A stretch of 64,000 bases of DNA from Acidihalobacter yilgarnensis. GTDB taxonomy: Bacteria; Pseudomonadota; Gammaproteobacteria; DSM-5130; Acidihalobacteraceae. The notes beneath the pieces were generated by a model. It saw only the letters and a program-made list of their open reading frames with translations, was not told the DNA's origin and did no database searches. The stretch's first letter is position 1. Each line of letters opens with the position of its first letter. Made by a program: the position numbers and the translations under genes. Shown here piece by piece: positions 860 through 19,081 of this stretch. The stretch spans positions 310,001 through 374,000 of the forward strand of contig NZ_CP017415.1 of assembly GCF_001753245.1 (NCBI RefSeq), read 5' to 3'.

Positions 860-3556
860 ATGACGCATACTCAGCCTGAAACTCATGCCGAGGCGCGGCT
901 CTCGGGCCGCGAACTGGCACGCCAACGCCGTAAGGCGATGGCTTCCCAGGGCAAGCGCGCGGTCAAGCCGGCTCGCCAAGCCGCCGCTCACGTGGCGGCC
1001 GCGTCCGGTGGCCAGGTGTTGGCGAAGAAAAGTGCCCCTACGGCGGCAAGCGTTGCGCCGACCGGGCCGTCGGGCCGGATGCTGGCCCGGAGTCGACGCG
1101 AGGCGATGGCGCGCAACGGCAAAGCCGCGTTGCCGAACGCGCGGTCGAGTGGAAGGCCTGTGCGTGCGGCCCGGAGCGAGCCTGCTGGGGCGAAGAATTG
1201 TGCCGAAGCATGCTCCTGCGGTTGCAAGGGCGCGCGCGAGGATGCGTTGACCGTCGATACTGGGCAGTCGGCGGAACGTCGCGTTGCCATGGCGAGCGAG
1301 GCAACGTCACTCACCCCCAAGGAAATAGCCGCGCGTCTGGTGAAGAATCAGGTGCATGGCAGCGGGCGCGATATCGCACTGGCGCGTCGCAAGGCCCTGG
1401 GGCAGGAAGGCAAGGCGGGACTCAAGCGCGCGGCGCAGGCGACCAAGATCGCGAAGTATCTGCCTGAGAAGGACTGGCGGGTAGCTATTGCCAAGGGTGT
1501 AACTGGCCGCCAGGTGGCCATGCAGCGTCGCAAAGTGAGAGCGCTTGCCGGCCGCGGCGAGACAGGACAGTCCGCTGATGAGACGCGTAAGTCGGCCAGT
1601 CGCCGTACTGCGCGTGCGCTTGCTGCGCCGCCGAAGGTCGAGCAGGGCCATACGTTGTCGGGTCAGGAAGTCACCGGCACCATGGTAGAGCGTGCGCGCC
1701 AAGTCACCGGCAACGAATCGGGTTCATGCCGGTCCGTGACCGGAACCGAGTATATCGGCCTGGAACAATTTGACGCTTTCTGCCAGGCGCGACCCGAGGC
1801 GAATCCGGCCAAGGTCACGCTGAGCCGGACGCTGCATGGTCGCTCCGTGTCGGGTACCGAGGTGGCGCCCGACGACAGCGTTACGGGTGCGGAATCTGGC
1901 GCTTGTCGCGAGGTGACGGGTACACAGTATCTGTCCGCCGACCATTTCGAGCGTTTTTGCCCGACCCGGCCGCAGCCGCCGGCGAGCAAGGTGGGCATGA
2001 CACGGACACAGAAAGACCAAGCGCTCACCGGCACGATGGTGCTTTCAGAGAGTCGTGTCACCGGCGGTGAAGCCGGCGCAGGCAGAGACATCACTGGCAC
2101 CGGCTATGCGCGCGCCAAAGCGCCGAAGCCTGCTGCGGAAAAGGTGGCGGTCATGCATACGGCGAGTGGCGGCCAGGTGACGGGCACCACCGTCGGCCGT
2201 TCGGAGCACGTGACCGGTAACGAGCCAGGTACGTGTCGTGTCGTGAGCGGCACGGAGTATCTGAGTTCGGAGCAGTATGCCGCGTTCTGCGAAAACAGCC
2301 CGCCCCGGCCGCCGCGCAAGGTCAGTATCATGTCGACGCCAGCCGAACAGCCGGTAACGGGTACCTCGGTCTCGCGCGACGCGAAAGTGACAGGCAACGA
2401 GCCGGGCTCCTGCCGCGCCGTCACCGGTACGCCGTACTTTAATAGCCGTGATTTTGGCGATGTCTGTGCGAGCAATGGACCCGCCAAGGTGGGTGCAGCC
2501 GCGACACGGGCCGGTACGCAGGTATCCGGCACGGAGGTACGCTCCAACCCAAAAATGACAGGTGACGAGGAAGGTCGGTGCACCCTCGTCACCGGAACCG
2601 ACTATGTCGGCGCGCAGGATTTGCGGGCCGTCTGTGTCGAAGGCACCCCGCCCGATCAGGCCGTAACCAAAGTAGCGGTTGATCGGACTTGGCAGGGCGA
2701 AACGATCACCGGTGCGGCTGTCGGTCGTGCCGCCAAAATGACTGGTGACGAATACGGCGGTTGCGCACCTATCAGCGGCACGCCTTACATCGGCCAAGGT
2801 CAGTATGTGCAGTTCTGCGAGCCGCGCGAAGCCGAGGCACAACTGGCGCGCGTGCCCACGCGTGGCATTGTTTCCGCCGCTGATATCACGGGCGACAGGC
2901 CGGGTGCAGGCGGATCCGTCATGACTGGCGACGAGCGCGGCGCGTGTGAACCAGTAACGGGTACGCCGTACGTGGGTCCGGACAATCTGTCTGCAGAATG
3001 CGCCATCGGTGGTGTCGGCAGCGGACGCTTCGTCGGTTCGCGCCGGGAAGTCGCTGAGCCGCCGCGGCCGTCTGCGCCTCGGGATTTCAGTATTGTGCCC
3101 CCCGCTAGGCAGGCATGCGAGGAGCGGCGCGGGCAGGCGGTGACCGGCGCACAAATCAACAGCGATCGGATTACCGGTAGCGCGAATCGCGCTCAGGGTC
3201 TGATCACGGGTACGCCTGAGTTTCGTCATCGCGACATCGATAGTAGGGCGGCCGAGACCGAGGCCGCTTCGGTAAAACTGCACAACAGGCCGAGCGACGA
3301 GGCAAGTCCACGCAATTTGCAGATCACGGGCGATACGTGGAGTGCGCAACAGAGAGAGAAGGTGACCGGCACCGAGGGCCACTTCTCCGTGATGCGCAAC
3401 CCGACCCAGCGAGGCAATCCGCGGGGTGCGGGGCGCAATGCGCAAGGCCATCGTGACGTTGAGCGTCCGGAGGTGCCGGAAAGTCCAGTCACTGGCTCGG
3501 CAGGCGCCACAATGCGCGGTGCGGTTGTGACGGTGTCTAGAGGCGCACGCGGGTAA
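860..3556 (+). CDS. csoS2: Carboxysome scaffold protein CsoS2
   Basis: 898 residues, close to known CsoS2 proteins. It is intrinsically disordered and links RuBisCO to the shell during assembly. The N-region has four basic helical repeats (about residues 16-32, 72-88, 169-185 and 216-234) of the GRxxAxxRRxAxxxxGK type that bind RuBisCO. From ~264 come M-repeats built on VTGT / VTGNE / VTGTxY triads with paired cysteines. The C-region (~660-898) ends in a GARG tail that anchors to the shell. A cysteine cluster (C114, C118, C120, C122) sits in the N-region. An in-frame slippery heptamer and stem-loop at 2548-2593 would produce a short form of about 568 residues lacking the C-region, matching the known CsoS2A/CsoS2B pair. 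The start follows a gaaggt-type ribosome binding site. Confidence 0.96.
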   Translation: MTHTQPETHAEARLSGRELARQRRKAMASQGKRAVKPARQAAAHVAAASGGQVLAKKSAPTAASVAPTGPSGRMLARSRREAMARNGKAALPNARSSGRPVRAARSEPAGAKNCAEACSCGCKGAREDALTVDTGQSAERRVAMASEATSLTPKEIAARLVKNQVHGSGRDIALARRKALGQEGKAGLKRAAQATKIAKYLPEKDWRVAIAKGVTGRQVAMQRRKVRALAGRGETGQSADETRKSASRRTARALAAPPKVEQGHTLSGQEVTGTMVERARQVTGNESGSCRSVTGTEYIGLEQFDAFCQARPEANPAKVTLSRTLHGRSVSGTEVAPDDSVTGAESGACREVTGTQYLSADHFERFCPTRPQPPASKVGMTRTQKDQALTGTMVLSESRVTGGEAGAGRDITGTGYARAKAPKPAAEKVAVMHTASGGQVTGTTVGRSEHVTGNEPGTCRVVSGTEYLSSEQYAAFCENSPPRPPRKVSIMSTPAEQPVTGTSVSRDAKVTGNEPGSCRAVTGTPYFNSRDFGDVCASNGPAKVGAAATRAGTQVSGTEVRSNPKMTGDEEGRCTLVTGTDYVGAQDLRAVCVEGTPPDQAVTKVAVDRTWQGETITGAAVGRAAKMTGDEYGGCAPISGTPYIGQGQYVQFCEPREAEAQLARVPTRGIVSAADITGDRPGAGGSVMTGDERGACEPVTGTPYVGPDNLSAECAIGGVGSGRFVGSRREVAEPPRPSAPRDFSIVPPARQACEERRGQAVTGAQINSDRITGSANRAQGLITGTPEFRHRDIDSRAAETEAASVKLHNRPSDEASPRNLQITGDTWSAQQREKVTGTEGHFSVMRNPTQRGNPRGAGRNAQGHRDVERPEVPESPVTGSAGATMRGAVVTVSRGARG
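2548..2593 (+). promoter_or_regulatory. Programmed -1 ribosomal frameshift signal in csoS2
   Basis: The heptamer C CCA AAA (2548-2554) lies in the X XXY YYZ phase relative to the csoS2 reading frame. A 6-nt spacer (2555-2560) separates it from a perfect 10-bp stem, 2561-2570 paired with 2584-2593, around a 13-nt loop. Slippage by -1 leads to a TGA at 2563-2565 after three codons, ending the protein at about residue 568. All three elements are directly visible. Frameshifting in csoS2 is established for Halothiobacillus neapolitanus; activity here is inferred. Confidence 0.82.
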
Positions 3557-3561
3557 AGGCC

Positions 3562-5127
3562 ATGCGTACGCGTACCCGACAACGCCAACCAACCCGCCGT
3601 GCCACGCGCTCGGTATCGCCTCTGCCCGGCGGTACTCTGTTGTCCGGCGCTGATGCGCTGATGCCCGCGCGCGTGATGCTGGCCAACCCGGCCTGCAATC
3701 TGGGTGAGAGCCAGCATTGTGAGCACGTGTTGGTCGATCGCGAGCTGAACAAGGCGCTGTATGGTTACGAGGGCATGCTGCAGGCTCGTTTCGACGGTGT
3801 TGACGAGACATTGAAGGCGGTGGCCGAACTGCCCCGAGACGAGGGGTTTGTGGCGCGGGCACAGCAGCTGGCGTGTACACGTCTCGGCTGTGAACTGCCG
3901 GCATTTATGTTGCAGGGGCCGTGGATCGCGGGGTTGGATATGCCCGCGCTGTACGCCCACTGTCTGTTCGAGATGTGTCGACACAGCGTGGCGCAGGCCC
4001 CGCAGGAGCAGCAGAGCTGGCTCAAGGGTATGGCGATCGACGATGCCTTCCTCACGGAGTGCGGCTACCACACGCTGGACATCACGCCCTGTGCTGATGG
4101 CCGCCTTCAGGGCGTGTTGCCCTTCGTGCTTCGGATTGCGCCGACCAGCGACGCGGTCGTGCTCAAGGCTTATGCGGGCGCATTGTTCGATATCGAGCTG
4201 GACATGGCTGACTGGAGCCAACGCGAGTTGGCGCAGCGCCTAAGTGGACGTCGCGAAACCCGCTATTTGAAGATGGCGGTGTACCACTACAGCAGTTCCA
4301 AACCATCTAGCGAAGGCTGCGCGGCGCATGGCAGCGACGAACAGGCGGCGCGCGATGCCGCGATCGACCGCTTGAGACAGCTGCGTAATGGCATTGCTCA
4401 GGCCTTTGGCGCCGGGCTCGGCCCAGATGTGCTGTTGCTCGGTGTGGATACGGACCTGGACGCGATCCGCGTACATTTTCCAGATGCGAATGGTGAGCCG
4501 ACGGCAACGGCAACCGTGGACGCAGCGCGTATTTATCGCGAAACACTGGGCATGACGGCAGAGCAGGCGCGCGCACATATCGCATCGGCCGTCGAACAGG
4601 TCGCTGACAAGCTCCGTAGCACGGGCCGGGCAGGTATGAAGGCCCTGATTGCGAGATTGCTGGAAGCCAATCTGTCGCAAATCGAATATGTCATCCAGCA
4701 CCATGAGGGGCGCTACGAAAGTCTTGGCCATGGTGAACGTTTCATTTGCGTCGGCGATCCCATCGACGATCTGCAGATGCGCAACCTCTATTACTTCGCG
4801 CATCTCGACACGCTAGAAGAAGGAGCAGCCTGCGTCGACGTCGGCATGCATATCTTCGAAAAGCTGAATCTGTCACGCGGCTTCCCGATACCGGTAATCG
4901 TGCATTTCAGCTATGCCTCGGTCATCCCGGGCGCGCGTGAGCGTGTGATCGAGCGAGGGGAGCGAGTGATGAGCGCTATACAAGCGCGTTACCGGGATCG
5001 CATGCCCTCAGGGATGATCAAATTCGCACTGTGCGTCAGCGATGCGACCGGAGCAGAGCGTTTGGCGCTGGTGCGTGAATGCGTTACGAATGCTCAGGCC
5101 GGAAACAGCGAAGGAATGGTTTCATGA
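3562..5127 (+). CDS. csoSCA: Carboxysomal carbonic anhydrase CsoSCA
   Basis: 521 residues, the usual size for CsoSCA (formerly CsoS3), a divergent beta-class carbonic anhydrase. It converts imported bicarbonate to CO2 inside the carboxysome. Candidate zinc ligands are C177 in the CADGR motif, which also gives the D/R dyad typical of the family, then H242 (VYHYS) and C253 (EGC). The spacing agrees with the H. neapolitanus enzyme. The first ~40 residues are arginine-rich and probably disordered, as expected for the RuBisCO-binding N-terminal peptide. It starts 5 bp after csoS2, and its TGA overlaps the csoS4A ATG, suggesting translational coupling. Confidence 0.95.
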   Translation: MRTRTRQRQPTRRATRSVSPLPGGTLLSGADALMPARVMLANPACNLGESQHCEHVLVDRELNKALYGYEGMLQARFDGVDETLKAVAELPRDEGFVARAQQLACTRLGCELPAFMLQGPWIAGLDMPALYAHCLFEMCRHSVAQAPQEQQSWLKGMAIDDAFLTECGYHTLDITPCADGRLQGVLPFVLRIAPTSDAVVLKAYAGALFDIELDMADWSQRELAQRLSGRRETRYLKMAVYHYSSSKPSSEGCAAHGSDEQAARDAAIDRLRQLRNGIAQAFGAGLGPDVLLLGVDTDLDAIRVHFPDANGEPTATATVDAARIYRETLGMTAEQARAHIASAVEQVADKLRSTGRAGMKALIARLLEANLSQIEYVIQHHEGRYESLGHGERFICVGDPIDDLQMRNLYYFAHLDTLEEGAACVDVGMHIFEKLNLSRGFPIPVIVHFSYASVIPGARERVIERGERVMSAIQARYRDRMPSGMIKFALCVSDATGAERLALVRECVTNAQAGNSEGMVS

Positions 5128-7489: not shown

Positions 7490-8116
7490 ATGCACTATAT
7501 CGCGGTGATCAATCAGAAGGGTGGGGTCGGCAAGACGACCATTTCGATCAACCTTGCGGCGGGTTTCGCGCAGCGGTTGCCCACGCTACTGATTGATCTC
7601 GACCCTCAGGGTACAGCGAGCGCATGGGCGTCTGTGGCCAGCCGCCCGCTGCCGATGCGGGTTAGCCACATGCCAGCCGGCTTTGATGCAAACCGGCCGG
7701 TTGCCGAGGGTGATCAGCCGGAAGTGGTGATTGTCGACTGTCCCCCGACCTTGGACAGCGATACGGTGATCCAGGTCCTGCGTTCGGTCGACCAGGTGTT
7801 GATCCCGGTGCTGCCGTCGCCGCTGGATCTGTGGTCCAGTTTGCGCTTAGCCGAATCCGTCGAGGAGGCTCAGCGCGTCAGCGGCAAGCTACAGGCGCGG
7901 CTCTTGATTAATCAGCTGGAGCCGCGTAGCGCGCTATCGAGTGCAATGGAGGGCGCGCTGCGCGAATTTTCCATTCCCTCTTTGTCGACGGCAGTACGTC
8001 GACGCGCGGTTTATCGCAGTACGGCGATGGAAGGCTTGACCGTATTCCAGGTGGGTACGAACGGCGCGCCAGCGCGCGCTGAATTCAACGCGATAATAGA
8101 CGAGGTGCGGACATGA
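7490..8116 (+). CDS. mcdA: ParA-type carboxysome positioning ATPase McdA
   Basis: 208 residues, the short ParA/MinD ATPase type. The deviant Walker A KGGVGKTT is at residues 10-17. [14 protein letters not shown] is the switch / Walker B region, and [13 protein letters not shown] follows the A' motif. McdA coats the nucleoid and, with McdB, spaces carboxysomes so that they are inherited evenly. It overlaps mcdB by 4 bp. The location downstream of acRAF identifies it as McdA rather than a chromosome ParA. Confidence 0.92.
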
Positions 8117-8370: not shown

Positions 8371-8417
8371 TACCTCGCGTCACCCGCACTTGGCCCACTT
8401 TGGATCGGAACCCCATC

Positions 8418-9326
8418 ATGCGCAGACTCACACCCAAGCAACTTCAGGCCCAGCATCGCCGCGAGGGCGCTAGACCCGCCGCCGAACAGACTTCCGCGCC
8501 GATCGCCGACGTCCCTAGCGGCAGCGCCGACCTGCTGGCCGACTACCGAGTGACCCAGGAGCCCTACTATCGGACCCTGGGTGATGAAGTTGAATTGTAC
8601 GAGGCGGCCTACGAAATCCGCATGCCCATGATGCTCAAGGGCCCAACCGGCTGCGGCAAGACTCGTTTCGTCGAATACATGGCTTGGAAGCTCGGCAAGC
8701 CATTGATTACAGTTTCCTGCAACGAAGACATGACTGCATCGGATCTGATCGGTCGCTATCTGCTTGACGCTAACGGTACGCGCTGGCAAGACGGGCCGTT
8801 GACGCTGGCTGCACGCCACGGCGCGCTTTGCTATTTAGATGAGGTGGTCGAGGCTCGCCAGGACACGACCGTAGCCATTCATCCGCTAACCGATTCGCGT
8901 CGTATCCTGCCGCTGGAGAAGAAGGGTGAGGTGGTCCAGGCGCATCCTGACTTCCAGCTCGTGGTTTCCTACAACCCTGGCTACCAGTCGGTGATGAAGG
9001 ATCTCAAGCAGTCGACCAAGCAGCGCTTTGGCGCCCTCGACTTCGACTATCCAGAGCACGATGTCGAAGTGGAGATTGTCGCGCATGAATCGGGCGTCGA
9101 TGCTGAAACCGCTTCCAAGCTCGTACACATTGCAGAGCGCGCTCGAAATCTCAAGGGGCACGGGCTCGACGAAGGTCTTTCAACCCGCATGCTTGCCTAT
9201 GCCGGCTCACTGATCGCCAAGGGCGTCGATCCGTTGAAGGCCTGCCGCGTTGCGCTGGTACGTCCGATTACCGACGATCTGGACATGCGCGACGCACTGG
9301 ACGCCGCCGTGACGACCTATTTCTAG
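8418..9326 (+). CDS. cbbQ: CbbQ, AAA+ subunit of the RuBisCO activase
   Basis: 302 residues, MoxR-type AAA+ ATPase. Walker A GPTGCGKT is at 75-82 and Walker B YLDE at 139-142. [21 protein letters not shown] contains the sensor-1 asparagine and arginine finger region typical of CbbQ/NorQ. With CbbO it removes inhibitory sugar phosphates from RuBisCO. ATG 8418 is preferred; an in-frame TTG lies 18 bp upstream. cbbO follows after 27 bp. Confidence 0.93.
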
Positions 9327-9353: not shown

Positions 9354-11702
9354 ATGAGCATACGTCTGGAAGAGCAAAGCGCATTGATTGAGGCGCTGCC
9401 TGAGCGTACCGCATCACTGTTGCGCGACACTTGGTCGGAGGCAACACGGACGTTTTCCGGTGCCGGGCTGCGTAATTTTCTGCGCGGGGTAGAAGCATTC
9501 AATGACCTCGGCCGCAGCGAAAACCTTTTGCTCAGCTACATCGAGAAGGCGCCGCAGCTGGCGCGCGCAGTCGGCGAGGACAGTGTCCCGTTATTGGTCG
9601 AATTCATCCTGGCGATGTCCTCTAAAACCTCGGGCGAGGTACTGGGGCTGTTAGTGGATGCGGCGCCTGGCGCCGCTGCACGCCTGGGGGATATCGAAGT
9701 ATTCACCCAATTTCTCGATCTGATGTCGCATGTGGCCGCCACCGCGCCGCGTGGTACACGGCCGCTGCTCGAACACCTGGATCGCCTGTTCAGCCAGCTC
9801 ACCCTGGGTGGCCTGCGCCGCTGGGTGCAGTGGGGATTGAAAACCTACGCCAACGATATCGAGGGCCAGCATCGCTATTTCTCGCTGAAAAGCCCGGATT
9901 CGCTCAGCGTATTGCAGCGTGAACGCAAAGGCACGGTTTTCATTGAGGTGCAGCGGCGCCTCAACATGTATTTGCGTGCGATATGGGGGCGGGATTTCTT
10001 CATGCGCCCGACCGCAGGTGACTACGAGGATCGCGAGGGGCTACGCCCCTATATTGAGCGCTACGTTATCCATATCGCCGATGCATATGACGATTACCGC
10101 TCTGATGACGATACGTCGTCCGACGGCGTCGTCGTCGGTACGGACATCTACCGCGCGGCTGCCAACCATTGCGCCGCGCACTTGGTATTTACCCGCGAGC
10201 CACTGCCGTCGGAGGGTCTCAGTGCGCTGGAACGCGCGGTATGCGAGCTGATTGAGGACGCACGGGTCGAAACGCTGGCCTGCGCACGCTATCCAAACAT
10301 GCGCAACGCTTGGCTGGCGATGCATCCGATACCTTCGACGGAGATACCGCAAACGCCAGGTGATCTGTTGCATCGACTTGCCTACAGCCTGCTGGATGAA
10401 CAGCATGAGGATCCGCACGTTTGGGTTGCCGATGCGGTCGCACGCTTTCGTGCGCTACCTTCTCTGGAGAACGGGGTTTTCAGCCTGGAACTCGGCGTTC
10501 AGCTCGCACAGACCTTGACCGAATACGGTTTACCACCCTATCAGGCTCGACGTGACAGACAGCGGGCGATCTACCGTGACGACAACCGCTTCATCTGGAG
10601 CGGTGGGGACTACGATACGGATGAGGCGTTGATGGCGACATGGGAGCCCAAGCAGCAGCGCCGAGATATCAACGTGATGGAAATGGTCAATGCCGTCGAT
10701 GTCGAATTCGCCGGCGACGATGCACAGGAAATCTGGGTGCTCGGTACCGAGTTCATGCTCGACGATGGTACCTCGCTCAACGAGCTGGAGGGTGGTCAAC
10801 CGGTCAGCCTCCCGGTGCATTATCACGAGTGGGACTACCAGATACAGCTCGAACGTCCAGAGTGGGCAACGGTCATCGAGCGGCGGCCGCAGATGGGCGA
10901 TATCGACACGATTGAGCAGACTCTCGATGAACTCAAGCCCACCGTCTCGCGGCTCAAACATAAGATCGAATCGCTGGTGCCGCAGGGGATGCAGCGCATC
11001 CGGCACCTGGAGGATGGCGACGACCTGGATATCGACGCGGCCGTGCGGGCGATGATTGACCTGCGCTTAGGGCGGCAGCCCGATCCTCGGGTCATGATGC
11101 GTAACCGTCTACACAATCGTGACGTCGCCGTACTGATGCTGCTCGACGTCTCCGAGTCGGCCAACGACGCGGTGCCGGGTGGCGACGAGACCATCCTGTC
11201 CTTGACCCGCAAGGCCTGCCTGGTGCTCGCCGAGGCACTGGAAAAGATCGGCGATCCTTTCGCGCTGCACGCGTTTTCTTCCGACGGCCGCCACGATGTC
11301 CGCTATCAGCGCATCAAGGATTTCAATCAGCCCTACGATGACATCGGCAAGGCCCGGCTCGCCGGCATGACGGCCGGTTATTCGACCCGCCTCGGCACGG
11401 CGCTGCGTCATGCCGGCAGCTATCTGCGCCAACTCCCGCAGCAGAAGAAATTGCTGCTGGTGATTACTGATGGTGAACCCGCTGATGTGGATGTTCGCGA
11501 TCCCCAGTATCTGCGTTACGACGCGCGCTACGCGGTCGATGAATTGCGGCGCGAGGGCGTCGTGACCTACGGCCTGAGTTTGGACCCCTATGCCGATCAA
11601 TACGTCTCGCAGATTTTCGGTGTTGGGCGCTATGCGGTCGTCGACCACGTCGAGCGTTTGCCGGAGAAACTGTCGACGCTTTACATGGGATTGACGCGAT
11701 GA
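9354..11702 (+). CDS. cbbO: CbbO, von Willebrand factor A subunit of the RuBisCO activase
   Basis: 782 residues, normal for CbbO. A long helical N-terminal part precedes a C-terminal VWA domain with the MIDAS motif DVSES (D598, S600, S602) and a later TDGEPAD. It is the adaptor that recruits the CbbQ ring to RuBisCO through the metal site. It overlaps csoS1D by 4 bp, so activase and shell gene are coupled. Confidence 0.94.
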
Positions 11703-12349
11703 ACCCGATGAATATCGAGTTGCGCACCTTCGTCTTCATCGACGCGTTGCAGCCGCAGCTTGCCTCCTATCTGGCGACCTCGTCACAGGGCTTCCTGCCG
11801 ATTCCGGGCGACGCCTGCCTGTGGGTCGAGGTTGCGCCGGGCATGGCGGTGCATCAGTTGTCCGATCTCGCGCTTAAATCGACCAACGTGCGTATGGGCC
11901 AACAGGTGGTCGAGCGTTCGTTCGGTTCGATGGAAATTCACTTCCGTAACCAGAGTGAGGTCAAAGCGGCCGGCGATGCCATTCTTGGCCGGTTGGACGT
12001 GTCGGTCGAGCAGCGGATGGGTTGCAACATTCCCTGGCTGGAGATCATCCGTGCCATTACCCCGGATCACGCTACCCTGATCAACCGTCAGCAGCGCTAC
12101 GGCTCCATGATTCTGCCGGGCAAGTGTCTGTTCATCATGGAAACGCAACCGGCCGGTTATGTCATCCATGCGGCCAACGAGGCGGAAAAGGCGGCCAACG
12201 TGACGCTGGTCGATGTCAAACCGTTCGGTAATTTCGGTCGTCTGACCATGATGGGCAATGATGCTGATGTCGAGCAGGCAGCGGAAGCGGCTCGACGGGC
12301 AGTGGAATCGATCAATCGGCGGGCAAAACCCGTGATGCAGGTGGACTGA
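11699..12349 (+). CDS. csoS1D: Tandem-BMC shell pseudohexamer CsoS1D
   Basis: 216 residues with two fused BMC-like domains (about 8-105 and 110-208). The segments [16 protein letters not shown] and [15 protein letters not shown] resemble known CsoS1D. Its trimers stack into a double-layered pseudohexamer with a gated large pore, thought to pass RuBP/3-PGA. It overlaps cbbO at its start and ends 2 bp before the protease gene. Confidence 0.94.
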
Positions 12350-12351
12350 GC

Positions 12352-13179
12352 ATGCGCATCGACACCTTAGCGAAACGCCTGATGTTCAACACCGTGCGCG
12401 TGGATACGGTACTGGAAGACGGCACCGAGGGTTCGGGCACGGGTTTCGTGGTTGCACACCAGGGCCCACACGGCCTGCGTCGCTTCATCGTCACCAACCG
12501 TCACCTGGTTGAGGGCGTGCGTAGCGGAGGGCTTGTGTTCACTCAGGGGCGGGACGGACAGCCCTTGATCGGTACCCGGTTCGAACTTGAGATTGAGGAA
12601 TTTCCGCACGCGTGGTTCCTGCATCCCGATCCGGAAATGGATCTTGCCATTGTGCCGATGGCGCCGCTGGAGCGCGCCGCGCGCGACCAGGGCGTGCAGC
12701 TTTACTACCACGACATCGACACCGTACTGGTGCCCGACGCGGCCACCGTCAACGGTTTCGATGCACTTGAGGAAATTCTGTTCATCGGTTATCCCAATGG
12801 GGTCTGGGATCACGTGAACCTGCTGCCGATCATGCGTCGTGGCACCACTGCCACGCCCATCGGTATGGATTTCGAGGGACAGGCCGAATTTCTCATCGAT
12901 GCCGCTGTCTATCCCGGCTCCAGCGGCAGCCCGGTATTCCTATACCGGGGCGAGAGTACGGCACCTGCCGGCGCTGCGCGCGCGCCGTTGTATTTTCTCG
13001 GTGTGATTGCCGCGGTCTTCTTTCGTGAGGAGGAGAACCAGCTGGTGCCCGGGCCGGTACCTGCCGGCCAGGGCAGCGCCAGGGTGCGCCAGTCTGAGAT
13101 GATCGATCTCGGTCTGGTCATCAAGTCCAAGGCGGTGGTCGATCTGATCGAGGAATATTGCCGCCGCTGGCGCGAATGA
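12352..13179 (+). CDS. Trypsin-like serine protease attached to the carboxysome operon
   Basis: 275 residues. A chymotrypsin-fold triad is visible: H51 in VTNRHLVEG, D97 in MDLAIV, and S191 in YPGSSGSPVF. The GSGTGFVV segment near residue 28 is typical of the first barrel. There is no signal peptide or membrane segment, so it should act in the cytoplasm. No PDZ domain is seen, unlike DegP/HtrA. The ATG lies 2 bp after csoS1D, so it is probably the last gene of the operon. Substrate unknown; maturation or quality control of carboxysome proteins is an inference from position only. Confidence 0.85.
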   Translation: MRIDTLAKRLMFNTVRVDTVLEDGTEGSGTGFVVAHQGPHGLRRFIVTNRHLVEGVRSGGLVFTQGRDGQPLIGTRFELEIEEFPHAWFLHPDPEMDLAIVPMAPLERAARDQGVQLYYHDIDTVLVPDAATVNGFDALEEILFIGYPNGVWDHVNLLPIMRRGTTATPIGMDFEGQAEFLIDAAVYPGSSGSPVFLYRGESTAPAGAARAPLYFLGVIAAVFFREEENQLVPGPVPAGQGSARVRQSEMIDLGLVIKSKAVVDLIEEYCRRWRE

Positions 13180-13203
13180 CGCAGCACCGATCGAGAGCAC
13201 GTC

Positions 13204-13530
13204 TCAGTTGGTGAATTTCACCAACCGGCTCACCTGGATGTCGGAGATGAAGATCACGCCCGAATGCTTGTTGAAGAACGGCGTGAAGCCTTCGACGATG
13301 GGCTCCACCAGTGCTTCGGGCACTGCGGTGATGATCATGATCAGCACGTCGTCCTCGTTGAACATCACGTGTCCTTCGTAGAAGCCGTGGCTGCCCTTGC
13401 CGGATAGCTGGTTGACGATGGTGTACCCCTTGACGCCCGCACGGTCGAGCAGGTCGGTCGCGAACTCCATATGCTCACCTTCGAGGATGATTTCCAGTTT
13501 TTTCAGGGGATTCAGCTTCAGATTTTGCAT
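13204..13530 (-). CDS. PII-like protein of the inorganic-carbon cluster (CPII/SbtB type)
   Basis: 108 residues with a ferredoxin-like PII fold: KKLEIILEGEHMEFATDLLDRAGVKGYTIV, then a short T-loop region GKGSHGFYEGHVMF. It is the last gene of the dabB-TM-dabA operon, 16 bp after dabA. Carboxysome-associated PII proteins bind adenine nucleotides and bicarbonate and tune carbon import, which fits this place. The start at 13530 was chosen because conserved sequence begins there; the longer frame runs into dabA. Confidence 0.87.
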   Translation of the reverse strand: MQNLKLNPLKKLEIILEGEHMEFATDLLDRAGVKGYTIVNQLSGKGSHGFYEGHVMFNEDDVLIMIITAVPEALVEPIVEGFTPFFNKHSGVIFISDIQVSRLVKFTN

Positions 13531-13546
13531 CGCGCTACTCTCGAAA

Positions 13547-16500
13547 TCAGTGTGTGGAAGCGACAGGGGGAGCGGCCAGCTCCGACCATTCGCGCCGTTC
13601 GTCGTCGAAGAAATGGATTTGCCCGTTTTCGGGGTCGACCACCACCAGCCTGATCCAGCCGTTGTGGACCAATGATTTGACGGGTGCAACCGCATTTAGG
13701 GCGTCGCAGGCATGCGAGAACGGCGCCTCGATGACGGTGATCAGGCGCAGTGGTTCATGGTAGGGACGACCATTCTTGAGCACGGTCTGTGCCGGCAGGC
13801 CGGTGCGCAGATCGCCGATGTTGCCGCTCATGACCGCGAAGCGGCCGGCGACGTTGTGATACACCTTGCTGCCGCTGCCATAGTGTTCGTTGTCGACAGC
13901 AGAAAAGTAATGCTCCATGTTGATCCACTGACCGACGACGAGCGGGCCGGTCAGGATGTTTTCAAGCAGCCTGCGACGCGGATCCAGCCGCCAGTCGTAA
14001 GAGTGCAGGAATGCGCGTCCGTCGAGGGACGTGCCCTGGGTCATGCCACGTCGGCCGATGATGAAATAGGCATTGCGCGAAAGCCCCCATTCTGGACGTA
14101 CCTGCGACCAGTCTAGCGCGTTGCGACGCACCATCCGTTCTGCCTGATCGGGGTCGAGACGGCGTGCGGGCATCGTCATGAGCTTGGGCGCGCGCTCCAC
14201 AGCGGACAGCCGGGAGGCAGCACGTAGGCCCTTGCGTAGGCGGTCAATATACAAAAGATGGCCGGCCGGAAGCAGTTCCAGGTCATGCGGCACGACCTCG
14301 TCTGTCGTGGTGTTGTGCAGCGCGGGTATGAACCAAGTGTCGTCTGGGATATCGATGCCTTGCTTGCGCAGCCGGCCGCGAACCTCCGGCTTGTTGGCCA
14401 TGTAGGCCAGCGCACGGGCATTGTTGAGGCCGAGGTTGCCGCCGCAGGCACCGCAGTCCAGTGCGGATTCGTAGGGGTTGTTCTGCGACAGACTGCCGTG
14501 GCCGATGAGCAGGACGAAGCGCGAGAAATTGCGTGCCAGACCAATGGAGCTCAGGGCCTGGGCCACGAAACGTACCTGCTCGCGCAGCGAGAAGCCGATC
14601 CTGGCCAATTGCTCCATCTGCCGCGCGGCTTCGTCTCGGTTGATGCGGTAATGCGCACGCAAGCGTGCCAGCAATGCATCGAGCCGCACGCGGTCGATAC
14701 CTAGCCGTTCCACCAAAGAGTCGTTTACGACTTGATGTTCCAGTGCAATTTCGCGCAGTTCGCGGACCACGTTGTCGGGGATGGCCTCATCCTGGCGGCC
14801 AAGCTCCTGTTTGAGCGCGATCATGATCAGTGCGCGCTGAACGGCGCGCACGATCGAATCGGCTTGCTCGCTGGTGAGCTTGTCCAGCAGCAGCCGGGTG
14901 GCGGGTTTGTGCGGTATCAGGCGCTCACGCCAGCGGTTGTACAGGCTCGGGGCAAAGGTCTTGCCGAACATGTCGAAGCCGAACAGTAGGCCGACCGCCT
15001 CGACCGTGGCAAACGGTGCGACGACGGACTCTTTAAGTTCGTGCAGCGCGTGCTCCAGGGCGCTAATCGCGGCGGGCTCGCCGGCCTGCTGATCGATGCT
15101 CATTTCCAGTGTCAGGTTGCGTGGTGTGGCCACCGCAGGGCACAGATGGGTTTCGCTGCCCTTGCCGAGTTCGATGAAGCTCATCGGCACGCCGAAAAAA
15201 CCGGCGATGCCGTAGGTCTGGTAGTCGCCGATGGATTCGAGTTGACGGCGGAGCGGTTCCGAGCGCGTGTCGATGCAGAACAGGGCTTGCGCGAAGGGGC
15301 GCTTGTCTGACGTCTCGGCTGGCTGGATACACAGGTCGCGCAACAGAGATTGTGTGGCGCTGGCCTCCATAGCACGTAGCCACAACATGCCTTCGGCGCG
15401 CTCGAACTCGACCAGTGTGATCAGCAGGGTTTCCAGTTCGTCCACGGAAAGTCGGCCGAGGTCGACGCCAGCGCCCTGGGCGAGCGCACGCAGACGATCG
15501 GCCTGCTGTGCAGTCTCCTGGGCGCGCAGGGCCTCGGCATAGCGAGAACAGAGCACGCTCGTGACCTTCGCATCGCTGCATAACAGCGCTTCTTCGACCT
15601 CCAGGGCGAATGCGGGGAGGATTTCCCCGCTGTGCAGCTCATGCTGCAGAAATGCGCGGTGAGTGTCACGGTCGAGGTAGGTATGCATGGACGGCGCATC
15701 GATATTGCGCCAGGGCAGGTGACGTGCGTGTTCTTGCAGTAATGCGAGACTCAGCGACAGACGCAGGGCTAGCAGGTCGACGAGATCGGCTGGATGTGTT
15801 TTTTGCCAGTGATACTGCTTAGCGTGCGAGCGCCAGCGGATGAAGCCGGACCAGCCATGCAGCCGAGTGAGTTCGCGGGTGAAGTAGTCTTCCCACGCAT
15901 GTTCCGGGATCTTCAAGGCCTCCATCACCAGAGCAATCATGGTCTCGGGTTGCTGCGCGCGCGTCAGCAGCTGTTCCATGTCGAGGCCGCGCAGCTTGAA
16001 GCGCAGATTGCGCAAGGCGAGCTGGCGCCACGCGCGGTACAGTCCTTGGTCGCGGTCCGGCATGCCCCAGGCGGACTGTCCTTCATCGAAAAAGTCCAGG
16101 CAGCTCTTGACCAGCAGGTCGTCCAGCGTGGTGCCTATATCGGTTGCCAACAGCGCATCGACCGATTCGTATACTGGGCGAGTCTCGCCCATCGCCTGGT
16201 GAAGTAGCGCTCGCAGCGTGTCGTCGGTGGGGTTTGTCCGGGCGCTGTCACCGGGCTCCCCACGCAGGTGGCTGGCGACGTCGCGCGGCGTTGCCAGCTT
16301 GCTTTGGCGGGTCACCGGCGTTTCGATGCAGGTGGCTAAGTGCAGGAATAACTTTTGTCCGTCTAAGGCTTGCGGCAGCGCATGACGGGCACTGAAGTTG
16401 GCAATCTGCGCCGCCAGCGCGTCTGGTTTTACACTGCCGTCGGCGAGGTAGCGCTGATATTCCGTGCGGGATAGGAAGCCGCGCGCATGGAACAGTTCCT

Positions 16501-16657
16501 CGCCGAGCGCTACCGCTCGCTCGAAAGTGAGGTGCTCAAGGCCGTGCAGCGGGTTGTGGTGAATGAAGCTGCGCATCGGCCAGAAATTGGGAATGGCTTC
16601 GCCCGCGATATAAACCATCGAGCGAATTTTGAGGGCGCGGGATAGAGGCAGGGTCAT
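13547..16657 (-). CDS. dabA: DabA, carbonic-anhydrase-like subunit of the DAB inorganic carbon pump
   Basis: 1036 residues of the DUF2309/UPF0753 family. Beta-CA-like zinc-site residues are C461 and D463 (FCIDTRSEP), H720 (IGHGSLS) and C735 (DCGACGG). The H-to-C spacing of 15 equals that in H. neapolitanus DabA. It converts CO2 to bicarbonate vectorially, coupled to cation flow through DabB. It is longer than the ~830-residue H. neapolitanus DabA, so it may be another subtype. A 1-bp gap separates it from the upstream membrane gene. Confidence 0.93.
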   Translation of the reverse strand: MTLPLSRALKIRSMVYIAGEAIPNFWPMRSFIHHNPLHGLEHLTFERAVALGEELFHARGFLSRTEYQRYLADGSVKPDALAAQIANFSARHALPQALDGQKLFLHLATCIETPVTRQSKLATPRDVASHLRGEPGDSARTNPTDDTLRALLHQAMGETRPVYESVDALLATDIGTTLDDLLVKSCLDFFDEGQSAWGMPDRDQGLYRAWRQLALRNLRFKLRGLDMEQLLTRAQQPETMIALVMEALKIPEHAWEDYFTRELTRLHGWSGFIRWRSHAKQYHWQKTHPADLVDLLALRLSLSLALLQEHARHLPWRNIDAPSMHTYLDRDTHRAFLQHELHSGEILPAFALEVEEALLCSDAKVTSVLCSRYAEALRAQETAQQADRLRALAQGAGVDLGRLSVDELETLLITLVEFERAEGMLWLRAMEASATQSLLRDLCIQPAETSDKRPFAQALFCIDTRSEPLRRQLESIGDYQTYGIAGFFGVPMSFIELGKGSETHLCPAVATPRNLTLEMSIDQQAGEPAAISALEHALHELKESVVAPFATVEAVGLLFGFDMFGKTFAPSLYNRWRERLIPHKPATRLLLDKLTSEQADSIVRAVQRALIMIALKQELGRQDEAIPDNVVRELREIALEHQVVNDSLVERLGIDRVRLDALLARLRAHYRINRDEAARQMEQLARIGFSLREQVRFVAQALSSIGLARNFSRFVLLIGHGSLSQNNPYESALDCGACGGNLGLNNARALAYMANKPEVRGRLRKQGIDIPDDTWFIPALHNTTTDEVVPHDLELLPAGHLLYIDRLRKGLRAASRLSAVERAPKLMTMPARRLDPDQAERMVRRNALDWSQVRPEWGLSRNAYFIIGRRGMTQGTSLDGRAFLHSYDWRLDPRRRLLENILTGPLVVGQWINMEHYFSAVDNEHYGSGSKVYHNVAGRFAVMSGNIGDLRTGLPAQTVLKNGRPYHEPLRLITVIEAPFSHACDALNAVAPVKSLVHNGWIRLVVVDPENGQIHFFDDERREWSELAAPPVASTH

Positions 16658-16658
16658 T

Positions 16659-17417
16659 TCAACCTCCCTGCAGCAGAGTTGTGAAAAGCGCTAGGCTGAC
16701 CAGCAGCAGCGCGGCGAGCGAGGCCACGAGACCGTAAAGCGACTTGTCGGGGAGATCCGTGACCGCGGGAAGTGACTGCGGTCTACCGAACATAAAGCTT
16801 TGTAGCAGCACGACGGCCGCCCAGGTCCACAGGATCCAGACGAATAGAATGCCGGTGGCGATACCCGGGTCGGTATGCAGGACGATGCCCGTCAATACGA
16901 AAAAACCGGGGAAGACCGGGCTTGCCACGGCCGCCAGCGTGGTTAGCGTGAGGCTGCCGGCCAGGCGAGGTTGGTGCAGGTGAAGTCCGCCGTAGAGCCC
17001 GCCGTAGGCGGCACCGAATCGTTGTTCGAGTGCATCGCCCACGATGGCCATCAATGCCAGTGGCGCGCCGAGACTGAGCGCGGACTGCCAGCCTGACGTG
17101 AATTCCGGACGCAGCAACCAGAGCATCGAGTAGGCTGAGGCGCCCAGGTAGGCGCTCCATAGGCGCAGGTCACGCGTGGCCAGTAGCCGGACGGCATAAA
17201 GCAGCGCGCTCAATAACACCCAGATGCGCAGCCAGTCTGGTATGGCTAAGGCAGATCCCAGCAGGATCACGCCTGCGAGCGGCCAGAGCAGGAACAGGGC
17301 AGCGCGTATCGGAGCGGACTGTATCCGGCGCCCGAGCAATTGCACAAAAAGTGCGCTGAAGGGGAATACCGGTAGGAACAGCAGTGCCATAACGAGACGC
17401 GGAGTCAATTCGGTCAT
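16659..17417 (-). CDS. Small NuoM-like membrane protein between dabB and dabA
   Basis: 252 residues, mostly hydrophobic, with about seven or eight predicted membrane segments. The stretch VFPGFFVLTGIVLH followed by a helix and FMFGRP resembles the late helices of NuoM/NuoN-type proton-pumping subunits, so it may be a reduced antiporter-like paralogue. The ATG overlaps the dabB stop (ATGA), so it is translationally coupled. I do not know a named function. A role as an accessory DAB subunit is inferred from position. Confidence 0.75.
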   Translation of the reverse strand: MTELTPRLVMALLFLPVFPFSALFVQLLGRRIQSAPIRAALFLLWPLAGVILLGSALAIPDWLRIWVLLSALLYAVRLLATRDLRLWSAYLGASAYSMLWLLRPEFTSGWQSALSLGAPLALMAIVGDALEQRFGAAYGGLYGGLHLHQPRLAGSLTLTTLAAVASPVFPGFFVLTGIVLHTDPGIATGILFVWILWTWAAVVLLQSFMFGRPQSLPAVTDLPDKSLYGLVASLAALLLVSLALFTTLLQGG

Positions 17418-19081
17418 CACAGCCACCTCAGCCAGCGGTTGAGTCGGGCGGAAACACGGAACAGTGTTCGACCGAACAGGGAGTAGAAATCGCTGATGTA
17501 CAACTCGCGGGAGAGATGCGTGTAGGCGGAGAGCCACACAGCGCCATTGCGAGGGCCATTGTCGTGCCGGTCGGATCGATACACGAGCAGCCAGCCCGCG
17601 AAGATGACCAGCGCGGCCAGACCTACTAGGGTGTAGAAAAAGGGTTGCGTGATGCCGGCAGCGTGGTAGATGGCTAGGCGCATGGCTTCGTCCGGATACA
17701 GGAATACGCCGAACGCATAACTAATGAGGGTGTAACCGACCACGATGATCAGCAGGGAGAAGACGGCGAGCGCGATCATGCGCCAGGGATCCGCGGTCTC
17801 CATGCGGTGTATCGAATAGAGCAGCTGCGCACCCGTCATCCAACCGAAGAAGAGTAGGATCACCGCCCCTTGTTCCTGCAAGATGTCGTTGCTGACAAAC
17901 CAGTGCGCGAAGCCGAGCAGCAGCGCCGGGGTGGCGACGGTGAGCAGGGCCATCGTCAGCCAGGAGGGCTTGCTGGCGCTCGGTTGACGCTCGACTACGA
18001 AGGTGTAGACGCTGTTCTTCGGCACGTCGTCGCTGTGCCGGGCGCGGCCGATAACACTACCCGAGCTGAGAAATAAGGTCCCCTTGAACAGACCGTGGGC
18101 GATGAGATGGAAGATGGCCAGCGAGAACGCGCCCAGACCGCATTCCATGATCATGAAACCCATCTGCCCCATGGTTGAATAGCCCAGCGATTTCTTGATG
18201 TCGTTCTGGATGAGCATCAGCATCGAGCCGATGATCGCGGTGAACAGACCGACGAAGAAGGCCCAGTGCAGCACCGGGCCGGCGTCAATGAACAGCGGTG
18301 CGAAGCGGTTGATGATGAAGGCGCCCGCGTTGACGATGCCCGCGTGCATCAAGGCTGAGACGGGCGTTGGGCCCTCCATGGTATAGGGCAGCCAGGTGTG
18401 CAGCAGGAATTGTGCGGAACGCGCAAACGCCGATAGCACGATGAGCGCGGATGCGGTCATCACCACCGGGAGGCCTTCGGTTGTGATCGAGGGGTTATCG
18501 CGCACCAGTTCGAACAGATGGGGCAGATAGAGCGTGCCATAGGCGTGATAGAGCAGGGCCACGGCAATTACGATCGGGATGTCGCCGAGTCGGTAGGTTA
18601 AAAGGGTCCAGAGTGCGTAGCGCTGGGCGCTGCGGCTGCGCGTCTCGAAGCCGAGCAGGAAATACAGCAGCACCCCAATGAGGTGCCAGGCGACTAGCAG
18701 CAGGATCAAGTTGCCGGCCGTGACCATGAGTATCAGCGAGGCCGTCATCAGGTCGAGCAGCATGAAGAAATGCGCGTAGCGGGGTTCTTCTGCCATGTAG
18801 CGCAGCGAGTAGATGTGCACGACCAGACTGATTGCGGCGATGACCAGGGCCATCAGCGTGCCCAACGGGTCGAGTAGGAGCAGGGTTTGGCTGGTTTGTG
18901 GGGCGCCGGAGTGATGTTCGAACAGTTGTCCGGCAAAGAGCACGGCGGCCGCTAGCGCGGTGAGTACACTGAAGGTCGCGCTGATCTTGCCGGCGCGCAG
19001 CGGAGCGCCGGCGGGCGCCAGTCTGACGGCGCCCGCCGAGACCAGGGGTAGAGAGATGAGCAGTAAGAGCAGTACGTCCAT
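17417..19081 (-). CDS. dabB: DabB, NuoL-like cation-translocating subunit of the DAB pump
   Basis: 554 residues, a proton-conducting antiporter-like membrane protein related to NuoL/MrpA. Visible family motifs include LLVAWHLIGVLLYFLLGF, WLPYTMEGPTPVSALMHAGIVNAGAFIINRF and the lysine-bearing QNDIKKSLGYSTMGQMGFM. It supplies ion flux to energise DabA. It is the first gene of the minus-strand operon that converges on the carboxysome operon. Confidence 0.92.
   Translation of the reverse strand: MDVLLLLLISLPLVSAGAVRLAPAGAPLRAGKISATFSVLTALAAAVLFAGQLFEHHSGAPQTSQTLLLLDPLGTLMALVIAAISLVVHIYSLRYMAEEPRYAHFFMLLDLMTASLILMVTAGNLILLLVAWHLIGVLLYFLLGFETRSRSAQRYALWTLLTYRLGDIPIVIAVALLYHAYGTLYLPHLFELVRDNPSITTEGLPVVMTASALIVLSAFARSAQFLLHTWLPYTMEGPTPVSALMHAGIVNAGAFIINRFAPLFIDAGPVLHWAFFVGLFTAIIGSMLMLIQNDIKKSLGYSTMGQMGFMIMECGLGAFSLAIFHLIAHGLFKGTLFLSSGSVIGRARHSDDVPKNSVYTFVVERQPSASKPSWLTMALLTVATPALLLGFAHWFVSNDILQEQGAVILLFFGWMTGAQLLYSIHRMETADPWRMIALAVFSLLIIVVGYTLISYAFGVFLYPDEAMRLAIYHAAGITQPFFYTLVGLAALVIFAGWLLVYRSDRHDNGPRNGAVWLSAYTHLSRELYISDFYSLFGRTLFRVSARLNRWLRWL

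Follow-up and report, generated by a model that had tools for sequence, protein, structure and literature searches.

An HtrA-fold serine protease linked to one lineage of alpha-carboxysome gene clusters

In a CO2-fixing bacterium, a serine protease gene is linked to one branch of the alpha-carboxysomes, where it is nearly always present, and it is not found elsewhere. Given this distribution, the protease is probably a working part of the carbon-concentrating machinery of that branch. Its restriction to one lineage, together with the varying identity of the gene upstream, points to a lineage-specific component of the alpha-carboxysome CO2-concentrating mechanism (CCM), rather than to a general component or a specific partner of csoS1D. 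On balance, we favor the reading in which the protease acts on a client of its own cluster.

Results

The window (the whole stretch of DNA that was analyzed, 64,000 nucleotides) carries an extended cso cluster with csoS2, csoSCA, csoS4A and csoS4B, csoS1 genes, a bacterioferritin-like and a pterin-dehydratase-like gene, mcdA, and an mcdB candidate. These are followed by cbbQ, cbbO, csoS1D, and the protease gene, with genes for a PII protein, DabA, an unnamed ORF, and DabB on the opposite strand (Table 1). All elements of the extended alpha-carboxysome locus (CbbO, CbbQ, CsoS1D, McdAB, DAB, and PII) are thus in the window, but this cluster has the protease in addition. The ORF between dabA and dabB (16659-17537, minus strand) looks hydrophobic and has no significant Pfam family. 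For the csoS1D product, the top NCBIfam model is that of the beta-carboxysome protein CcmP, at 234 bits, under the cut-off of 340.

Table 1. Features of the cso cluster and the adjoining carbon-uptake module in the window
Feature	Position	Strand	Remarks
csoS2	860..3556	+	position and matches to cso loci
csoSCA	3562..5127	+	lineage marker for the tree
mcdA, ParA-type ATPase	7490..8116	+	Pfam
mcdB candidate, 85 aa	8113..8370	+	no Pfam match; follows mcdA; 40% identity to the small post-mcdA gene of locus L017
cbbQ (AAA_5 + CbbQ_C)	8400..9326	+	start uncertain: TTG at 8400 or in-frame ATG at 8418
CbbQ N-terminal tail, lineage-specific	8400..8546	+	precedes conserved core RVTQEPYYR...
cbbO (VWA domain)	9354..11702	+	overlaps csoS1D by 4 nt
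csoS1D, BMC-domain shell protein	11699..12349	+	2 nt upstream of the protease gene
HtrA-fold serine protease (PDC-S45 family)	12352..13179	+	ORF, ATG start, 275 aa
PII-like protein, convergent inorganic-carbon-uptake module	13204..13530	-	
dabA (PF10070)	13547..16657	-	
dabB candidate (Proton_antipo_M)	17417..19081	-	

A preliminary description of this DNA had proposed a protease with an intact triad, no PDZ domain, and no signal peptide, starting 2 bp after csoS1D, and these features were confirmed. The csoS1D gene ends at 12349 and the ATG of the protease lies at 12352, leaving 2 nt between them. Trypsin_2 (PF13365, E 8.7e-12, residues 29-201, 46.4 bits against a cut-off of 27.6) is the sole Pfam match, so a PDZ domain is lacking. 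The triad consists of H51, D97, and S191, the last within G189-S-S-G-S, and both triad and GSSGS are kept in 85/85 of the close orthologues that were examined (identity of 55% or more, over 250 aa). Judged by hydropathy alone, there is no hydrophobic N-terminal segment (Kyte-Doolittle, best 19-residue mean of 0.5 for segments starting at residues 1-25). Simple scans of 11600-13700 gave no promoter-like sites and two terminator-like sites, both within the protease gene and at chance level (1.8 expected). A search of its own genome with the protease gave one match at E <= 0.01.

The AlphaFold2 model of the protease (pLDDT 83.7, pTM 0.85) resembles the protease domains of the HtrA/Deg family (S1C: DegP, DegS, Deg2, HhoA) at Z 17-20 and rmsd 2.4-3.6, with Deg2 at Z 20.0, DegS at 19.2, and DegP at 19.1. 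The triad is shared, as is the motif DAA-x-x-x-G-x-S-G, at which HhoA, a sequence match from the PDB, aligns to the protease. Typical HtrA/Deg members have one or more PDZ domains, whereas the window protease has neither a PDZ domain nor a hydrophobic leader and is only about 15-20% identical to them; the NCBIfam HhoA/HhoB/HtrA model scores 21.6 bits on it against a cut-off of 450. In chymotrypsin numbering, the residue that we take to form the floor of the S1 pocket is A185. HtrA proteases take small or aliphatic P1 residues, and A185 therefore suggests such a P1 residue for this protease, not Arg or Lys. By homology, and by its DAA motif, the pocket looks HtrA-like, so that of the earlier term "trypsin-like" the fold stands and the specificity does not. 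The predicted fold is also that of the magnetosome proteases of the MamO/MamE type, HtrA-like proteases dedicated to a bacterial organelle, albeit a different one; the model matches MamO, which has a known role and a degenerate site, at Z 17.4 and 17.1.

We scanned the GTDB species genomes and kept the best 80 of 89 relatives. These orthologues are 56-71% identical to the window protease, and such conservation in 80 further loci puts the reading frame far beyond chance. Their hosts include Thioalkalivibrio, Thiobacillus, Thiomonas, Nitrosomonas, Nitrobacter, Hydrogenophaga, Serpentinimonas, and Tepidimonas, among others, and their genomes are for the most part draft assemblies. The carboxysome link that had been proposed was borne out: among these best 80 of 89, a cso gene lies on the flanking stretch in 64/80, and the remaining 16 have SbtA, SbtB, c13, an LCIB-like carbonic anhydrase, DabA, or PII nearby. 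No locus has neither type, so that cso or carbon-uptake and associated genes stand beside the protease in 80/80. CsoSCA was found in 40 of the 49 tested genomes with orthologue loci; of the nine without it, three (L005, L049, L070) have only carbon-uptake and associated genes at the locus, and the other six have cso, mcdA, cbbQ, or cbbO there.

Neighbors were counted by tblastn with named queries over 82 loci, comprising the best 80 of 89, the locus of genome G110, and the window. The gene immediately upstream is csoS1D in 38/82, cbbO in 15/82 (one of them minus-strand in the table), and SulP in 13/82, with median gaps of 13 nt (n = 38), 7 nt (n = 15), and 13 nt (n = 13), respectively. In 58 of these 66 loci the gap is at most 21 nt, and in the others it is 40-157 nt. 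The adjacency to csoS1D that had been described thus holds for 38 loci, with cbbO or SulP taking its place elsewhere; since csoS1D is not beside the protease in over half of the loci, it was set aside as a specific partner, though it may still be a client. In Nitrobacter hamburgensis the cso cluster is on plasmid 1, with the protease, annotated as "serine protease" in the plasmid record, immediately behind the gene that takes the place of csoS1D. Within 250 bp downstream, the next matched gene is c13 in 42/82 and sbtA in 16/82 (17 with the minus-strand locus of G110). In Thiobacillaceae-type loci the protease stands with SulP and c13, some kb from csoS1D and away from cbbO/csoS1D. An LCIB-like carbonic anhydrase (PF18599, barely above the cut-off) is encoded at L006:8688-9833 and in similar Thiobacillaceae-type loci, on the opposite strand, where it precedes either the protease or SulP.

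The orphan c13 is a protein of about 100 aa (e.g., L043:10862-11212) without a Pfam match, and its three-helix model found no match in the PDB by Foldseek at E <= 0.001. Where the stretch reaches 9 kb or more, c13 is present in 15/40 protease-bearing and 2/62 protease-free loci. As an obligatory partner it was rejected, being absent from the window and not universal. A second c13 copy in one locus (L032:15968-16276) lies right before a second cbbQ and a gene that, by its sequence, is presumably a form II Rubisco.

As a component of carboxysome loci, the protease stands within one cso lineage, but not in general: a close orthologue is missing in 92/100 sampled CsoSCA-bearing genomes, a few of which have distant homologues of 32-46% identity. 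A class-wide sample around the window's genome had CsoSCA in 68/369 genomes. Close orthologues (at least 70% identical) occurred in four, all with CsoSCA (G000, G001, G004, G110), and in 0/301 genomes without it; the best other match, 45% identical, was in a genome without CsoSCA (G202). Three of the 64 protease-free CsoSCA genomes of this sample had distant homologues (G025, 46%; G279, 34%; G194, 32%). An order-wide sample around genome G377 had CsoSCA in 32/300, with close orthologues (63-67%) in four, again all with CsoSCA (G377, G388, G391, G481), and in 0/268 genomes without it, the next best match being 40%. The two samples share at least one genome, and among the eight positives are both sample centers and two genomes closely related to that of the window.

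A CsoSCA tree, made with a quick method, explains the absence from 92 of these 100 genomes, since it contains a single protease-bearing lineage. Its 133 rows are the 92 sampled genomes that lack the protease, all of them included, plus 41 rows that carry it, namely seven of the eight sampled (G001 left out), G002, N. hamburgensis, and 32 loci picked for the protease; L023 was too short to be included. A single branch (SH-aLRT 100, stem about 0.5) sets all 41 apart, with 0/92 protease-free rows inside the lineage, which spans alpha-, beta-, and gammaproteobacteria. FastTree trees of cbbS, csoS2, csoS4B, csoS1D, cbbO, cbbQ, and mcdA, each covering the loci that have the respective gene, gave the same split without error (supports 0.90-1.0). 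The csoS4A tree misplaces one of 41 rows and the cbbL tree one of five, and the pcd and csoS1 trees do not separate protease-bearing from protease-free loci. The relative stem length of the lineage branch is greatest in the csoS1D tree (2.54, against 1.49 for cbbO and 1.35 for csoSCA), but csoS1D of the lineage shows just three fixed differences and no indel.

A passage in PMC9164163 describes a non-carboxysomal CsoSCA2. It was dismissed as a confounder, as csoS2 and csoS4 are present in 62/62 protease-free loci of at least 9 kb. The csoS4/csoS1 genes were present in 30/30 (L088-L117), 30/30 (L256-L285), and 14/14 downstream stretches checked; csoS2 was found in 32/36 of L286-L321, with none on the stretch of L321, a second Nitrobacter copy.

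We also surveyed all 117 genomes of the family of G377, 64 of them with CsoSCA, and two alphaproteobacterial genomes (from a sample with CsoSCA in 2/190), for a total of 66 searched. Lineage CsoSCA occurred with the protease in 26 genomes and without it in one (G970); the other CsoSCA occurred without the protease in 39 and, where it was the only CsoSCA, never with it. The CsoSCA lineage consequently predicted presence or absence of the protease in 65/66 genomes, counts on which Fisher tests ignore relatedness. The survey is partly independent: 25 of the 26 carriers were already among the relatives from the GTDB scan (G955 is new), and it overlaps with the CsoSCA tree in eight of the 26 carriers and at least one of the 39 non-carriers (G461). 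On its contig, G970 has the lineage cluster from csoS2 to csoS1D and no protease in the assembly, so that either the gene was truly lost or the draft assembly is incomplete there. One draft genome (G397) combines the two lineages, with one cso cluster of each on two different contigs (L323, L324); one of these clusters was placed from a short 124-aa piece.

Discussion

We infer that the protease is active, cotranscribed, cytoplasmic, and at work on a CCM protein. As a soluble, PDZ-less HtrA-fold protease, it would be made together with CbbO and CsoS1D or, after rearrangement, with bicarbonate-transport genes, and would find its client, in the cytoplasm, among the products of its own cluster. 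Limited proteolysis or quality control of a CCM protein is its most likely action. It may thus be the counterpart, in another bacterial organelle, of the HtrA-like proteases of magnetosomes. The shuffling of the gene between the cso and transport halves leaves room for several candidates: the CbbQ tail, the transporter/PII side, c13, or general quality control. CsoS2, CsoSCA, and McdB had been put forward as substrates, and no result singles any of them out. Some observations run against a CCM role, including the protease-less G970, the lack of the protease in most sampled cso genomes, the relatives on plasmids, in a phage, and in unrelated contexts, the scoring of the family as a defense candidate, the distance of some kb from csoS1D in Thiobacillaceae-type loci, and the 16/80 loci without a cso gene on the stretch.

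The preliminary description had also called the protease an undescribed component. The protein family is already known, being modeled in PADLOC as PDC-S45, but a link to a cso lineage was not found described in the main texts of the open-licence papers searched. The passages on proteases or peptidases in PMC4207490, PMC9164163, PMC4633670, PMC8217296, PMC10880623, and PMC12918739 mention no cso-linked protease. A peptidase occurs in another type of microcompartment, GRM3, according to a passage in PMC4207490, and PMC5216662 refers, in a passage on a context other than cso, to a DO/DegQ-family protease. The lineage counts Nitrobacter, Nitrosomonas, Thiobacillus, Thiomonas, Hydrogenophaga, and Thioalkalivibrio among its members. 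Models and engineering of alpha-carboxysomes rest largely on Halothiobacillus and alpha-cyanobacteria. A lineage that adds a protease and whose activase subunit is altered implies that part of the natural carboxysome parts list is missing. The protease raises a well-defined question that experiments can address: which protein is cut, at what stage, and why in only one lineage.

CbbQ is longer in the lineage (median 307 aa, n = 38) than in protease-free loci (267 aa, n = 14). The extra length is an N-terminal tail, with a median of 46 residues ahead of the core, e.g. MRNDPFMRTYSPRQEALARA. CbbQ of protease-free loci starts 7-9 residues before the core in 15/15 loci with a readable cbbQ, these being drawn from 62 stretches of at least 9 kb, most of which lack cbbQ. 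Most lineage members have a tail motif around RTY-S/A-PR (R-T-Y-x-P-R type), with RLTPK as the window's variant. A regular expression finds the motif in 62/65 protease-bearing loci with a readable cbbQ and in 0/15 protease-free ones; in the three misses the motif lay beyond the span of the expression, the start was not settled, or another cbbQ was present. No comparable lineage-specific insertion was found in CsoS1D, CsoSCA, CbbO, or CsoS4B. Because tail and protease are confined to the same lineage, the tail is the leading single candidate client. The protease might trim it, maturing the Rubisco-activase subunit so that the activase is released or docked in the carboxysome. We nevertheless think this unlikely, as tail and protease on one branch amount to one event, not many, the tail is kept in G970 without the protease, and an HtrA-like S1 pocket gives no reason for cleavage at an arginine motif. 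A bolder and quite improbable idea is that alpha-carboxysomes include a hidden, horizontally spread type with its own maturation protease, which would cut a cluster client, perhaps the CbbQ tail, during assembly. If so, it would be comparable to the protease-driven maturation of virus capsids and magnetosomes. We know of no earlier proteolytic step in carboxysome biogenesis, so such a protease would be the first. Alternatively, the association could have arisen without any function, through a linked gene being inherited: every trait tied to the lineage falls on one and the same branch, and phylogeny alone cannot part function from linkage for a trait of that kind. The kept catalytic residues, the short upstream spacing, and the joint occurrence of gene and cluster in three classes speak for a role in the CCM (mechanism and ALTERNATIVES).

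A role in carbon uptake, where the protease would regulate the levels of SbtA/SbtB, SulP, or DAB, or regulate the orphan c13, also seems to us unlikely. It would fit SulP as the gene directly before the protease, c13 or sbtA as the next one, the Thiobacillaceae-type arrangement, and the PII-dabA-dabB module that the protease faces in the window, and it makes SbtB, SulP, and c13 alternative clients to the CbbQ tail. However, no transporter is common to all lineage loci, and three Nitrobacter loci (L035, L040, L044) lack every queried transport gene in the 10 kb that follow the protease. Nor are transport genes more frequent around cso loci with the protease than around those without it (sbtA, 12/40 against 21/62; SulP, 9/40 against 17/62; dabA, 5/40 against 24/62), as counted on the available stretches, whose flanks are unequal in length. 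Far less probable is a defense protease that merely hitchhikes in the cluster. The window protease belongs to the PDC-S45 family, with a full-length profile match (E 1.6e-84, residues 1-269), and 30/30 members of an alignment that includes four distant homologues match it as well (13 also match RT-Protease_XI and four LmuA, weakly). Distant relatives lie on 105/106 plasmid records (the remaining record being N. hamburgensis) and in phage SfII (two records), one sharing a 13-kb plasmid with a restriction endonuclease, and further relatives occur in varied, unrelated chromosomal settings. Passages in PMC12429752 place PDC-S45 in a Sinorhizobium meliloti prophage, but they class it as predicted, within the group "Phage Defense Candidates". 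The window protease differs in its cso/carbon-uptake neighborhood, and the tie to cso genes, the short gene spacing, and the retention across three classes are unlike defense cargo. The protease tree has a single change between cso and non-cso rows, and the branch that sets the cso set off, though weakly supported (SH-aLRT 64), also speaks against a hitchhiker. The relatives on plasmids, in phages, and in varied settings suggest that the cso branch was domesticated from within a partly mobile family, the direction being inferred.

The C-terminal signature also differs, with EMIDLGLVIKS in the cso protease and PNNLGLVIKA or a near variant in three distant homologues. A 45% identical homologue (L138:6525-7364), from a genome without CsoSCA, shares EMIDLG and has an ORF on either side, one of 1161 and one of 1200 aa. 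Another distant homologue (L140:6861-9096) lies amid short same-strand ORFs, two of which have like beginnings, in what is possibly a cassette array.
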